Of a stretch of DNA of 64,000 bases, positions 8,352-59,645 are shown piece after piece. Within the stretch, counting starts at the first letter, position 1; every line of letters begins with the position of its first letter. The position numbers were made by a program, and so were the translations under genes. The notes under the pieces were generated by a model. The model was not told the DNA's origin. It searched no databases and worked only from the letters and a program-made list of their open reading frames with translations. Origin of the DNA: Stenotrophomonas sp. NA06056 (GTDB taxonomy: Bacteria; Pseudomonadota; Gammaproteobacteria; Xanthomonadales; Xanthomonadaceae); assembly GCF_013364355.1 (NCBI RefSeq), contig NZ_CP054931.1, forward strand, positions 3,348,001 through 3,412,000, in the 5' to 3' direction.

Positions 8352-8436
<85 letters not shown>

Positions 8437-8560
8437 GTGGCCGGCTCAGGTGTTCATTGTTGCAGGCGGGGGCGGAAAGCGGAAGGCTTCCACAAAACTG
8501 AATACGCCAGATGACTGGCAGAAGCGGCCCGGGCGGCGGCGGCCGCCCCGGACCATCGGA

Positions 8561-8890
8561 TCACTGCGCGGGCTGTGCCGGCTCCGACACCGCAACGTCA
8601 CCGTCCAGCCCCGCATCACGCTTGCGGATCTCAAGCGTCGAGCCGTCTTCGGAGCGCCTCATTTCAACCGCATCCGCCGGCACCCCCTGCCCCGTCGCCT
8701 GGGCCGGACGCATGGCCGTCGCCACGTCGACCGGTTGCGCGGGGACATGCTCGACATCCGCAGCGCGCTCCACCGTCTGCGCGTGGTCAGGCGCGCCCCC
8801 GGCAGTGGCGGTGTCGTCAGCCCTGCAGCCAGACAGGGCGATCAGCACCGCGCTGGACAGGATCACGCCCACGCTTTTGTTGACTGCCAT
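8561..8890 (-). CDS. Small predicted lipoprotein, function unknown
   Basis: A 109-residue protein with a lipoprotein signal: a hydrophobic segment VGVILSSAVLIALSGC ends in the lipobox LSGC (Cys at about residue 22). The mature part is acidic and rich in Ala, Pro and Val (VERAADVEHVPAQPVDVAT) with a DGSTLEIRKRDAG patch near the C-terminus. I recognise no domain. ATG 8890 has GAGGAG 7 nt in front; a longer frame to 8929 lacks such support. It probably sits in the outer or inner membrane facing the periplasm. Confidence 0.75.
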   Translation of the reverse strand: MAVNKSVGVILSSAVLIALSGCRADDTATAGGAPDHAQTVERAADVEHVPAQPVDVATAMRPAQATGQGVPADAVEMRRSEDGSTLEIRKRDAGLDGDVAVSEPAQPAQ

Positions 8891-9024
8891 CGAAGCACTC
8901 CTCATGCATGCGCCTTCGGCGCGGAACACCTATTGGGAGCGATGCGGCCGGCAACCGGTGAGAAGCAGCTCACAGCATTGAACATGCCGATGACGCATTT
9001 GACGCTGATTTCAGCTGTGCTTCA

Positions 9025-9048
9025 GTAGATCCACGCCGCGCGCGGATG
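9025..9048 (+). repeat. SMAG-type GTAG palindrome
   Basis: Begins with GTAGATCCACGCC and ends in GCGCGGATG, a GTAG-headed imperfect palindrome of the type named SMAG in S. maltophilia. Confidence 0.75.
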
Positions 9049-9108
9049 AACACATCAATGCGTTCGGCACCCACTCCATGACGGGGATCCACCGACGCTG
9101 CCGCAGGC

Positions 9109-9175
9109 AAGAAAAAAGCCACTTGGCGGACCAAGTGGCTTTCGTCTGGTGGGCTGTCAAGGATTCGAACCTTGG
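9109..9175. repeat. 67-bp direct repeat, distal copy (attachment-site-like)
   Basis: Identical to 9326-9392. It contains the last 29 nt of a tRNA-Lys gene (T arm through CCA, minus strand) plus the 3' hairpin GCCACTTGG/CCAAGTGGC followed by a T run. The layout resembles an attL/attR pair of an element that integrated at the tRNA 3' end. Confidence 0.8.
9147..9175 (-). pseudogene. Truncated tRNA-Lys 3' end
   Basis: 29 nt identical to the 3' part of tRNA-Lys at 9364-9439 (CCA, acceptor 3' strand, T arm). Anticodon arm, D arm and 5' acceptor strand are missing; the sequence turns into unrelated GC-rich DNA at 9176. It cannot form a functional tRNA. Confidence 0.85.
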
Positions 9176-9325
9176 GGACGCGGCTGCGCATTCGCGCTGC
9201 CGCCCCACGCGCCGCTGCGCATCGCGCGGGCCCCTCTCACCAACACCCACATCCCCCCGGCTTCGCCGCGCCCCCTTGACTCAAGGGGGCTATCCTCCAG
9301 CCGGCTCCACGCCAGTGGAGACATA

Positions 9326-9392
9326 AAGAAAAAAGCCACTTGGCGGACCAAGTGGCTTTCGTCTGGTGGGCTGTCAAGGATTCGAACCTTGG
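9326..9392. repeat. 67-bp direct repeat, copy at the intact tRNA-Lys
   Basis: Second copy of the 67-bp repeat, here overlapping the 3' end and terminator of the intact tRNA-Lys gene. 150 bp separate the two copies (9176-9325); they include a 10-bp-arm palindrome GCCCCCTTGA/TCAAGGGGGC. Confidence 0.8.
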
Positions 9393-9439
9393 ACCTATTG
9401 ATTAAGAGTCAACTGCTCTACCAACTGAGCTAACAGCCC
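9364..9439 (-). tRNA. tRNA-Lys (CTT)
   Basis: 76-nt cloverleaf with acceptor GGGCTGT/ACAGCCC, anticodon loop CTCTTAA (CTT) and encoded CCA. Its mature sequence is identical to the tRNA-Lys at 9590-9665, but the 3' flanks differ. Confidence 0.97.
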
Positions 9440-9589
9440 GAAATCGGGGGGCGAATTATCACCCGATCCGCGGGGGTGTTGCAAGTACTTTCTTCAACCT
9501 CGCTGAAACAAGCACTGCAACCGGCGATCCATCGCGAAGGGTTACATCTGAAGAAAAAAACCACCGGGCTGACCCGATGGCTTCTGTCT

Positions 9590-9665
9590 TGGTGGGCTGT
9601 CAAGGATTCGAACCTTGGACCTATTGATTAAGAGTCAACTGCTCTACCAACTGAGCTAACAGCCC
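9590..9665 (-). tRNA. tRNA-Lys (CTT)
   Basis: Second tRNA-Lys, same 76-nt sequence and anticodon CTT. It has a different downstream hairpin (CCATCGGGT with the ACCCGGTGG side) followed by a T run. Confidence 0.97.
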
Positions 9666-9744
9666 TTGAAACTCAGACGCACATTGTAGCGTGCACTCTG
9701 TTTATTGCAATACCGTTTCGGCGCTGCCGATGCGGTTGAATCAG

Positions 9745-9822
9745 TGGGGTGGCTGAGGGGATTCGAACCCCCGACCACCGGAATCACAATCCGGTACTCT
9801 AACCAACTGAGCTACAGCCACC
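9745..9822 (-). tRNA. tRNA-His (GTG)
   Basis: Cloverleaf with acceptor GTGGCTG/CAGCCAC plus the extra G at position -1 pairing with C73 that is characteristic of tRNA-His. Anticodon loop TTGTGAT (GTG); CCA encoded. Confidence 0.97.
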
Positions 9823-9994
9823 ACTGAAACTTTCGCTTCACCGCCTATACCGCCGACGCTGAGGCTTGATACGTTGCCCGAGGACTGTCACCGAAGTTCC
9901 GGTCCGCCGAAGCGAGTCCGACATTCTGGTGGAGTCGCCCGGGTTTTGCAAGCACTTCTTCACATCTGCCAGTTGCGTTCCGGTGTCGCACCAA

Positions 9995-10071
9995 TGGCGC
10001 GCCCGACAGGAATCGAACCTGTAACCGCCGGCTTAGAAGGCCGGTGCTCTATCCAGTTGAGCTACGGGCGC
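9995..10071 (-). tRNA. tRNA-Arg (TCT)
   Basis: 77-nt cloverleaf with acceptor GCGCCCG/CGGGCGC, anticodon loop CTTCTAA (TCT) and encoded CCA. Second gene of the Pro-Arg-His-Lys-Lys cluster in transcription order. Confidence 0.97.
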
Positions 10072-10109
10072 CCGAACCGGAACGGCGTCCAATCCGACGT
10101 GATGTGGAT

Positions 10110-10186
10110 TGGTCGGGGTAGAGGGATTCGAACCCCCGACATCCTGCTCCCAAAGCAGGCGCGCTACCAGACTGCGCTATACCCCG
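10110..10186 (-). tRNA. tRNA-Pro (TGG)
   Basis: 77-nt cloverleaf with acceptor CGGGGTA/TACCCCG, anticodon loop TTTGGGA (TGG) and encoded CCA. First gene of the minus-strand tRNA cluster, divergent from the Bax-inhibitor-like gene. Confidence 0.97.
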
Positions 10187-23159: not shown

Positions 23160-23425
23160 CATCCACGCATGGCGTGGATCTACCGTGTCGACCAAGGTCG
23201 ACACCCACCAACAGCAGGCCATGCCATTCCGACAGTTCGCAGGACTCTGTCGAAGGCGGGGTGGGTCCGGTTGCGGGGGTGTCCGCGGCATGGATGCCGC
23301 GGCCAAGCCCCCAAGGATGGGTTCACGGCGTCCCCCGCAACCGGACCCACCTCGCCATCCCACGGATACCCCGCTTTTGACGTTGACGTTGACGTTGCCT
23401 CTGCGGGTGCAGGGCGCAGCCCTGC
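23160..23425 (+). repeat. Composite structured intergenic element, copy A
   Basis: Fills most of the 373-bp gap between ppk1 and ppx. Parts in order: an inverse SMAG palindrome (23160-23183); a palindrome GTGTCGACC/GGTCGACAC (23185-23204); a 25-bp stem with arms 23255-23279 and 23332-23356 (one mismatch; core GTCCGGTTGCGGGGG); inside it a hairpin CCGCGG-CATGGATG-CCGCGG (23283-23302); hexamer repeats TTGACG (23376-23398); and a hairpin GCAGGGC-GCA-GCCCTGC (23409-23425). Copies B and C near 59.1-59.6 kb have the same order. Confidence 0.85.
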
Positions 23426-42670: not shown

Positions 42671-43017
42671 GGAGCGGCCCCTGGTAGTGGAACCTTCGAT
42701 TGTAGCCCGCCACCCTGCCCCGCCCCGAACCCCGGAAGTCATGGGGCCCTCTTCGCTCCGCCGCGCGCGCGTTGGCCGCGCGCACGGAAACCGTCCTGAG
42801 GGGGCGTGATCACCCTGGCCGGGACCGTTGGCGCCAAGGATGGCGCCATCGAGCACCAAGGAGGGGCTTTTGCGTGTCCCGGCCAGGGTGACCACGCCCC
42901 CTCCCCTCAAATCAGGGAGGCGCTGCTGTTTGCAGGACGTTCGAAACGCCCGCCTGCGTGCAGCTTTCGTTCCACCAATGCACCCGCAGCGCAACATGGG
43001 AAATCCGCGTGGCGCCC

Positions 43018-59123: not shown

Positions 59124-59385
59124 GCAGGGCTTGCAGCCCTGCACCTGCAGAATCAACGTCAACGTCAACGTCAACGTCAAAAGCCGGGCTACTGAAGGAT
59201 GGCGGGGCGGGTCCGGTTGCGGGGGACGCCGTGAATACGTCCCTGTAGGCTCGGTCGCGCCATCCATGGCGCTCACGCCCCCGCAACCGGACCCACCCCG
59301 CCTTCGACAATTTCCCACCGCTGTTGGGCTGCTGTTGGTGGGTGTCGACCTTGGTCGACACGTAGATCCACGCCATGCGTGGATG
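59124..59385 (-). repeat. Composite structured intergenic element, copy B (inverse orientation)
   Basis: Mirror of copy A. Left to right: hairpin GCAGGGC/GCCCTGC (59124-59142); hexamers AACGTC x4-5 (59153-59180); 25-bp stem 59201-59225 with 59278-59302 (one G-T type mismatch); inner hairpin GCGCCATCCATGGCGC (59257-59272); palindrome GTGTCGACC/GGTCGACAC (59342-59361); SMAG GTAGATCCACGCC... (59362-59385). Confidence 0.85.
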
Positions 59386-59427
59386 CTTTTCGATGAACTA
59401 TCGAAATATTTGATTCCGATGGATTTG

Positions 59428-59645
59428 ATCCACGCAAAGCGTGGATGGACCATCCGTCACCGGGAATCTGTCGAAGGTGGGGCGGTGTCGGATTGCGGGG
59501 TGTCAGCCGCATGGATGCGGCTGCCAAGCCTACAGGGACGTACTTGCGGCGTCCCCGTAATCCGACACCGCCCCGCCACACCACGGAATGCAGCTGTTGA
59601 TGTTGCTGTTGCTGTTGCTTCGGCGGGTGCAGGGCGCAGCCCTGC
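59428..59645 (+). repeat. Composite structured intergenic element, copy C
   Basis: Same orientation as copy A: SMAG-like ATCCACGCAAAGCGTGGAT (59428-59446); no GTGTCGAC palindrome; 25-bp stem 59476-59500 with 59553-59577 (core GGTGTCGGATTGCGGGG); inner hairpin CAGCCG-CATGGATG-CGGCTG (59504-59523); hexamers GTTGCT x3-4 (59596-59619); hairpin GCAGGGC-GCA-GCCCTGC (59629-59645). Copies B and C fill the 629-bp prpE-rluA gap head to head. Confidence 0.85.

Follow-up and report, generated by a model that had tools for sequence, protein, structure and literature searches.

Introduction

TwoAYGGAY (Rfam family RF01731), which was reported in 2010 and is probably an RNA, occurs in the human gut, Gammaproteobacteria, and Clostridiales (PMC2864571). 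Binding to CsrA has been predicted for it (PMC4333381); its function is a prediction, and the papers found in our literature search contained no test of it. Proteins of the RsmA family bind the site ANGGAN (PMC3791407). In Xanthomonas, the RNA RsmU has been found, and the excerpts of the same article report that a homologue of CsrB or RsmXYZ has not (PMC7694677). Another Rfam family, the Yersinia sRNA Ysr224 (RF02770), is multi-copy in Y. ruckeri (PMC12112432).

The composite element and its copies in the window

The DNA analysed is a stretch of 64,000 nucleotides from Stenotrophomonas sp. NA06056 (hereafter, the window). An earlier description made from the letters alone (the sequence-only reading) had proposed three copies (A, B, and C) of a composite intergenic element, and all of its named parts were located at the places it gave. 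The three copies are real, but their count is too low: there are four in the window and at least 151 in the genome. What had been called SMAG is present and belongs to class SM4, and the 'GTGTCGACC palindrome' is also present but looks like a GGTGGG-tagged REP (compare SM1/SM2); REP classes are taken from PMC3686654, Table 2. The features are listed below, with scores from R1, a covariance model built from 45 copies of the same genome ('own copies').

23161..23183, minus strand: SM4-class REP of copy A, placed by exact string, with its GTAG tag on the minus strand; outermost 5' part
23185..23209, minus strand: second REP of copy A, GGTGGG-tagged, of the SM1/SM2 kind (GTGTCGACC palindrome), placed by string; class by PMC3686654, Table 2
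23229..23252, plus strand: small 5' hairpin of copy A, CCGACAG..CTGTCG, common to many A-type copies
23255..23356, plus strand: copy A core, with two hairpins inside a long stem of 25 bp (arms 23255-23279 and 23332-23356)
23246-23356: R1 match of copy A, 128.2 bits
23283..23302, plus strand: hairpin 1 of copy A, hexaloop AUGGAU with C-G closing; CATGGATG at 23289-23296
23309..23321, plus strand: hairpin 2 of copy A, hexaloop AAGGAU with C-G closing; CAAGGATG
23375..23399, plus strand: hexamer repeat (TTGACG)n of copy A
23409..23425, plus strand: GCAGGGC-GCA-GCCCTGC hairpin of copy A (GC hairpin), the 3' end of the composite
59201..59302, minus strand: copy B core (long stem, hairpins 1 and 2); R1 127.9 bits
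59337-59361 and 59362-59384: copy B REPs, with its hexamers at 59153-59182 and its GC hairpin at 59124-59142
59476..59577, plus strand: copy C core, with a long stem differing from that of A and B; R1 120.4 bits
59428-59446: degenerate REP of copy C, with its hexamers at 59594-59618 and its GC hairpin at 59629-59645
59362..59446, no strand: REPIN-like doublet of inverted REPs separating copy B from copy C, which are head-to-head
42792..42900, plus strand: fourth copy, divergent; R1 73.9 bits; loops CAAGGATG and CAAGGAGG; long stem unrelated

In copy A, the GGA of hairpin 2 lies 23 nt downstream of the GGA of hairpin 1. A single inner hairpin had been described, but the alignment of 45 copies shows two; the spacer CCAAGCC is kept, as had been claimed, but CCAAGCC...CGGCGT contains the second hairpin and is not mere spacer. 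Neither REPs nor a GC hairpin were seen alongside the fourth copy, which adjoins an open reading frame with alcohol-dehydrogenase domains (ORF and Pfam evidence). Separately, the window carries ten tRNA genes altogether, in two minus-strand clusters (8355-10186 and 1124-1647).

Base pairing and covariation of the core

Folded as RNA, copy A with its flanks has a z-score of -6.6 relative to 200 shuffles, and the four window cores also fold far below 200 shuffles (z from -7.6 to -8.5). Hairpin 2 forms in the single-sequence folds of copy A and the fourth copy and is absent from the minimum-energy forms of copies B and C. In the alignment of 45 own copies (44 of them distinct), hairpin 1 has the loop CATGGATG and both of its arms change together, while hairpin 2 has the loop CANGGAYG and arms CCC/GGG, TCC/GGA, or TAC/GTA. 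Twenty-four of the 39 pairs are doubly changed in this alignment, 99.2 per cent of cells are paired, and no slid structure exceeds 47.0 per cent. Double-change cells number 210, compared to 57.1 in shuffles, and the compensatory changes that the sequence-only reading had pointed out are therefore far beyond chance. The RNAalifold consensus agrees with both the shuffle and the slid-structure counts.

The same structure is retained in 100 copies from other genera (88 loci, with 85 of the copies from outside the order): 37/39 pairs show two-sided change and 97.6 per cent of cells are paired, a value that drops to 37–43 per cent when the structure is slid. The sequence of the outer stem is free to vary in these copies, and its pairing is retained. 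Covariation of the stems around both loops, one of the features by which we assessed membership in TwoAYGGAY, is present in own and other-genera copies alike.

Some copies depart from this plan. Insertions interrupt hairpin 2 in three own copies (G000:C1 1109588, 1399893, and 3753670), which share one foreign sequence at the same place, and the own copy at G000:C1 1110062 and locus L290 of genome G098 seemingly carry a second kind of insertion in it. In a second subfamily (L070:1667-1778, L075:1660-1784, L067:1248-1354, L082:1325-1445, and L092:1501-1619), hairpin 1 is CATGGATG, except for CATGGAGG in L075, and hairpin 2 has a CAGGA apex (for example, GACAGGATGTC) in an otherwise different sequence. 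We also considered whether the variable stems arose when the core inserted into palindromes that already existed; this reading is not favoured, because within a genus the copies have stem ends in common and mid-stem sequences that differ.

Strand asymmetry of the imperfect pairs

Selection on double-stranded DNA, or repair that matches one arm to the other, should leave behind about as many G-U as A-C pairs. Among stems picked by Watson–Crick matches only, the ratio of G-U to A-C on the GGA strand is 68:12 in distant copies (80 stems), 78:10 in own copies (122 stems), and 46:1 in the loci of the family (34 stems). Taken copy by copy, the sign of the G-U excess is 36:5, 59:5, and 24:0, respectively, the copies being non-independent. 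The same ratio in model-fitted alignments is 97:30 and 89:11. A control in which the GC hairpin and three classes of REP were counted together yielded a GT:AC ratio of 6:5, and so has little power. The wobble asymmetry points to a single-stranded RNA (or single-stranded DNA) of the GGA sense. It is left unexplained by a plain double-stranded site, that is, by the protein-binding DNA that had been offered as one option.

Matched arms might also have arisen without selection, if template switching at quasipalindromes matches the arms and gene conversion swaps whole hairpins. The place of copies B and C in genome G855 is in line with such a process, as both copies are there with other stems in conserved flanks (B self-matching, C with one mispair), and so are the subfamilies whose stems agree at their ends and diverge mid-stem. 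However, template switching is expected to be strand-symmetric, which the three ratios of leftovers are not, and the loop bases stay fixed while the stems change. We consider this explanation improbable. Selection on base pairing, which had been proposed as the simplest reading, is backed by the covariation in own and other-genera copies and by the wobble asymmetry, and these data support the view that the core is a structured molecule selected for base pairing.

Constraint on the loops

Both core hairpins end in the hexaloop CANGGANG, the recognition motif of RsmA/CsrA; a fuller form of the motif for the RsmA family is (A/U)CANGGANG(U/A). Both motifs are on one strand in 143/150 own copies, and the other 7/150 have one. 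The core therefore has the two terminal (A)YGGAY/ANGGAN loops of TwoAYGGAY, and it carries GGA in paired hairpin loops like RNAs that sequester RsmA/CsrA.

Hairpin 1 is an invariant CATGGATG in the R1 training copies (45/45), and R1 therefore favours all eight loop letters alike. Because this preference also shaped the search that yielded the 100 other-genera copies, differences among loop positions are the one feature unaffected by it. In these copies, hairpin 1 reads C97 A94 N(G46 T44 A9 C1) G98 G99 A98 N(T70 C16 G8 A5) G97, and hairpin 2 reads C100 A99 N G100 G100 A100 N G100. Six letters per loop are thus fixed in 94–100 of 100 copies, and the two N positions vary. The junction letters AGCC and TTYACGGCG are largely retained in the same copies. 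Since an A-U pair within loop 1 is impossible in 24/99 of them, what is maintained is the hexaloop.

Copy number, attached repeats, and distribution

A DNA search of the own genome recovered at least 134 matching pieces (40 of 383 candidates scored), and an R1 search recovered at least 150 matches (150 of 4226 candidates scored). Of these, 145 score at least 89 bits, and the last five range from 60.5 to 34.0 bits. A later R1 scan of own-genome loci added six matches at new places, including window positions 42792-42900, and from the 145 and these six comes the minimum of 151 copies.

An SM4 REP lies within 220 bases on the 5' side of 80 of the 145 copies, an SM1/2-type REP of 88, and either of the two of 106, in agreement with the REP/SMAG relationship suggested by the sequence-only reading. 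The hexamer tract is found on the 3' side of 79 copies and the GC hairpin of 87; all four parts accompany 38 copies. In 1057 control segments, the respective counts are 4 (SM4), 8 (SM1/2), 69 (hexamer), and 3 (GC hairpin). The 145 copies include 44 close pairs, every one of which (44/44) is head-to-head. Near-identical stems seem to be avoided within such pairs (0/44, versus 8.9 per cent of random pairs). In genus g18, five and six copies follow one another in arrays whose orientation alternates (L074:1058-1753 and L233:1279-2127).

The REP/SMAG tag (GTAG or GTGG by an 8–9-bp palindrome) is present in the attached REPs and not in the core. The own genome has 354 exact SM4 sites and three of its congeners have 62 to 106 each; none occurs in genome G029 (same genus) or in five genomes from other genera. 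Five of these six genomes without sites (ten were searched) carry the element, and the core is therefore not specific to SMAG; for example, genomes G118, G065, G044, and G206 have at least 97, 61, 70, and 39 R1 matches, respectively. Genome G029 has no R1 match among the 150 candidates scored. The REPs, hexamers, and GC hairpin are, judging from these comparisons, a local add-on to the core.

Beyond the genus, R1 matches were detected in 34/119 genomes of the family (17/54 genera), in 64/369 genomes of the class, and in 32/398 genomes of a phylum sample, where all 32 belong to the same class (the share of other classes in the sample is not given). Nine chosen genomes have, at E-values up to 1e-6, at least 0, 124, 97, 61, 70, 39, 43, 79, and 8 matches; with 150 candidates scored per genome, these counts are lower bounds. 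Building a covariance model and searching relatives, a check that had been suggested earlier, therefore produced further copies with compensatory changes.

Genomic surroundings and mode of spread

According to codon-model gene calls made in this analysis, 142/150 own copies and 128/144 copies elsewhere lie outside genes. The upstream gene is on the same strand in 80/142 own copies and 52/124 copies elsewhere, which corresponds to random orientation. It follows that the dispersal looks mobile and that neighbouring genes are not placed so as to favour transcription of the GGA sense.

Copy A lies between genes for polyphosphate kinase and a Ppx/GppA-family protein, and copies B and C lie between acetyl-CoA-synthetase-like and pseudouridine-synthase genes. 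At the place of copy A, genome G071 has the element, genome G098 has a REP without the hairpin between the same two genes, and genomes G118 and G016 have short spacers without the element. The search for empty sites that had been recommended thus yielded one hairpin-less site and two element-free spacers.

Intergenic location, random orientation, high copy number, and recent spread would all be expected of purely mobile DNA, in which the stems and loops are the single-stranded substrate of an HUH (Y1/RAYT-type) nuclease or a recombinase and the likeness to CsrA sites is coincidental. The G098 site, the REPs attached to 106/145 copies, and a RAYT-like gene beside SM4 REPs in the own genome fit this explanation as well, and a one-strand single-stranded DNA hairpin could also favour G-T over A-C. 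Nevertheless, no core lies within 1.5 kb of any of the Y1 transposase genes that were found in the own genome (0/3), the element is abundant where exact SM4 REPs are absent, and both hairpins fit ANGGAN, including which positions are free. On balance, we regard purely mobile DNA as rather unlikely.

A further proposal, which equates the long stem with the TIR of S. maltophilia TIRYT transposases as described by Di Nocera and colleagues, appears exceedingly improbable. Two TIR families have been reported, one of which is self-complementary, in close pairs (PMC3733652), and to this extent they resemble the core; however, the TIRYT-like gene of the own genome is flanked by AAAAGGGGACGGAGGGGATTAAGTCG-type repeats and not by the core, and the core was not found as a repeat flanking a Y1 tyrosine transposase gene, which is the arrangement of TIRtron/TIRYT units. 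Identity with the Di Nocera TIR families was rejected because the three Y1 transposase genes detected in the own genome carry other flanks. The TIRYT-like unit itself (L031, G000:C1:4303608-4306934) consists of a Y1 transposase gene between inverted AAAAGGGGACGGAGGGGATTAAGTCG-type repeats.

The element could alternatively be a terminator or mRNA stabilizer selected in untranslated regions at the 3' ends of genes. Several copies have a stop codon near their GC-hairpin end, the gene on the GC-hairpin side is at a median distance of 101 bp, and 47/142 copies lie between convergent genes. Yet orientation is random, the copy A sequence has no T tract 3' of its GC hairpin, and the GGA loops would be left unexplained, which makes such a role very improbable. 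Specifically, the nearby stop codons had hinted at a 3'-UTR or Rho-terminator function, which was unsupported once orientations were counted.

Relationship to Rfam families

The RF01731 model (gathering cut-off of 43 bits) matches 11 of 15 chosen genomes, five of them over the cut-off (best scores of 46.0 bits in G065 and 55.0 bits in G302), and has no match in the other four or in any of 14 control genomes. In the own genome it has five matches, the best at 40.0 bits, and four of the five are R1 copies. In 15 loci with strong R1 matches, searched at E-values up to 1, RF01731 matches 2/15: L157 at 44.0 bits (R1, 89.3 bits), the sole match over the cut-off among these loci, and one more at 35.3 bits. 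Copy A has no match at E-values up to 10, the window has none at the gathering score, 0/10 sources match at the gathering score, and five g18 loci have no match at E-values up to 0.01. The sole Rfam matches in the latter five loci at this threshold, three to a plant-type microRNA model, were taken as chance.

In our assessment, the core likely belongs with TwoAYGGAY; we read both as members of a single superfamily in which the window copies fall just beyond the reach of the RF01731 model, and we take the composite to be a high-copy, REP-fused repeat of the TwoAYGGAY type. The sequence-only reading had known of no description of the unit and had named a match to an established repeat family as an outcome that would count against it. 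Some sister copies match TwoAYGGAY, a named family, and that outcome was therefore found in part.

Ysr224 (RF02770) matches the opposite strand of copy A at 42.1 bits, its best score and below the gathering score of 70. In 15 other loci, it has nine matches in eight loci, again all opposite to the element strand (9/9). As RF02770 is opposite in all matches, RF01731 and RF02770 look like two strands of one repeat, which is what the matches suggest. Among the papers covered, our literature search found none that names both TwoAYGGAY and Ysr224, none containing strings of the element, and none on CsrA together with repetitive elements; nor did it turn up the abundance of copies, their fusion with REPs, the head-to-head arrangement, the evidence on strand, or the link to Ysr224.

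A possible RsmA/CsrA decoy

We propose that the core acts as RNA of the TwoAYGGAY type. Transcripts in the GGA sense would form the long stem and two terminal hairpins, each displaying a CANGGANG hexaloop to be read by RsmA/CsrA, and one element could clamp one RsmA dimer and hold it off its mRNA targets. In this lineage, the core would have been fused to REPs of RAYT-linked classes (SM4 and SM1/2), and the composite would have multiplied, often as head-to-head pairs around a REP doublet. To this whole explanation, which we consider the best available, we assign a probability of roughly 0.55. It draws on what was observed here, namely a covarying structure, constrained loops, a favoured strand, many copies across a wide range of genomes, and a sequence link to RF01731, and from these we infer transcription, RsmA binding, an effect on the cell, and RAYT-driven spread. 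Several results count against it: the random orientation towards upstream genes, the Ysr224 matches on the opposite strand, the incomplete match to RF01731, the lack of hairpin 2 in the minimum-energy folds of B and C, the good assembly G312 with the element but no CsrA match, and the Y1 genes with no core nearby, which show that RAYT linkage is not general.

Binding of RsmA by the core RNA is predicted with modest confidence. The idea of CsrA binding is not new here, since it had been predicted in print for TwoAYGGAY, reportedly by Gardner and Eldai. That the dispersed set acts as an RsmA decoy is a doubtful, putative extension, and slightly more doubtful still is that, in Gammaproteobacteria such as the Xanthomonadaceae, it substitutes for CsrB, the decoy being a mobile repeat and not one sRNA gene. 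In such a system, each insertion would add a one-dimer clamp, and copy number itself would therefore set the level of free RsmA.

A CsrA gene was detected in 313/369 genomes of the class and in 59/64 element-bearing genomes. The comparison of genomes with and without the element gives 54/55 versus 226/259 in good assemblies (one-sided P-value = 0.009) and 59/64 versus 254/305 in all genomes (one-sided P-value = 0.047), both ignoring phylogeny; the co-occurrence is weak support for a link to RsmA. The element-bearing genomes without a CsrA match are G126, G186, G217, G312, and G458; G312, with at least eight copies of the element, is the one good assembly among them.

As a class-wide, high-copy repeat with a constrained GGA strand and constrained loops, the element provides many natural replicates for testing TwoAYGGAY, and it may bear on what titrates RsmA in Xanthomonadaceae. 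If the proposal is true, it would link a transposon-like repeat with a global RNA regulator; under the CsrB-substitute reading, a selfish repeat would have turned into a global regulatory circuit or would be feeding on one.

Comparison with known systems

The core resembles TwoAYGGAY in its two AYGGAY loops (here ANGGAN), its poorly conserved outer stem, and its presence in Gammaproteobacteria. It differs in that copy A has no match to the model and own copies score at most 40.0 bits; moreover, the excerpts of the TwoAYGGAY papers mention neither many copies per genome, nor fusion with REPs, nor pairs that lie head-to-head. Ysr224 matches the same element, but its transcript has the opposite sense and all scores are below gathering.

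The SMAG/REP, REPIN, and RAYT systems of Stenotrophomonas are represented by the SM4 and SM1/2 REPs of the composite and by the inverted REP doublet that the pairs flank. REPs, however, are short tagged palindromes, whereas the 102-nt core is tagless and occurs without exact SM4 REPs in other genera. Composite TIRs of Pseudomonas, which combine a degenerate GTAG-1 with unrelated stem-loops and reach hundreds of copies, are a precedent for a REP joined to a stem-loop (PMC3733652); unlike the core, they flank a transposase gene, and they are likened here by description. Finally, CsrB, CsrC, RsmX, RsmY, RsmZ, and RsmU resemble the core in having GGA hairpins, by which these RNAs sequester RsmA/CsrA, but they are single genes, whereas the core is a dispersed repeat with two sites per copy.
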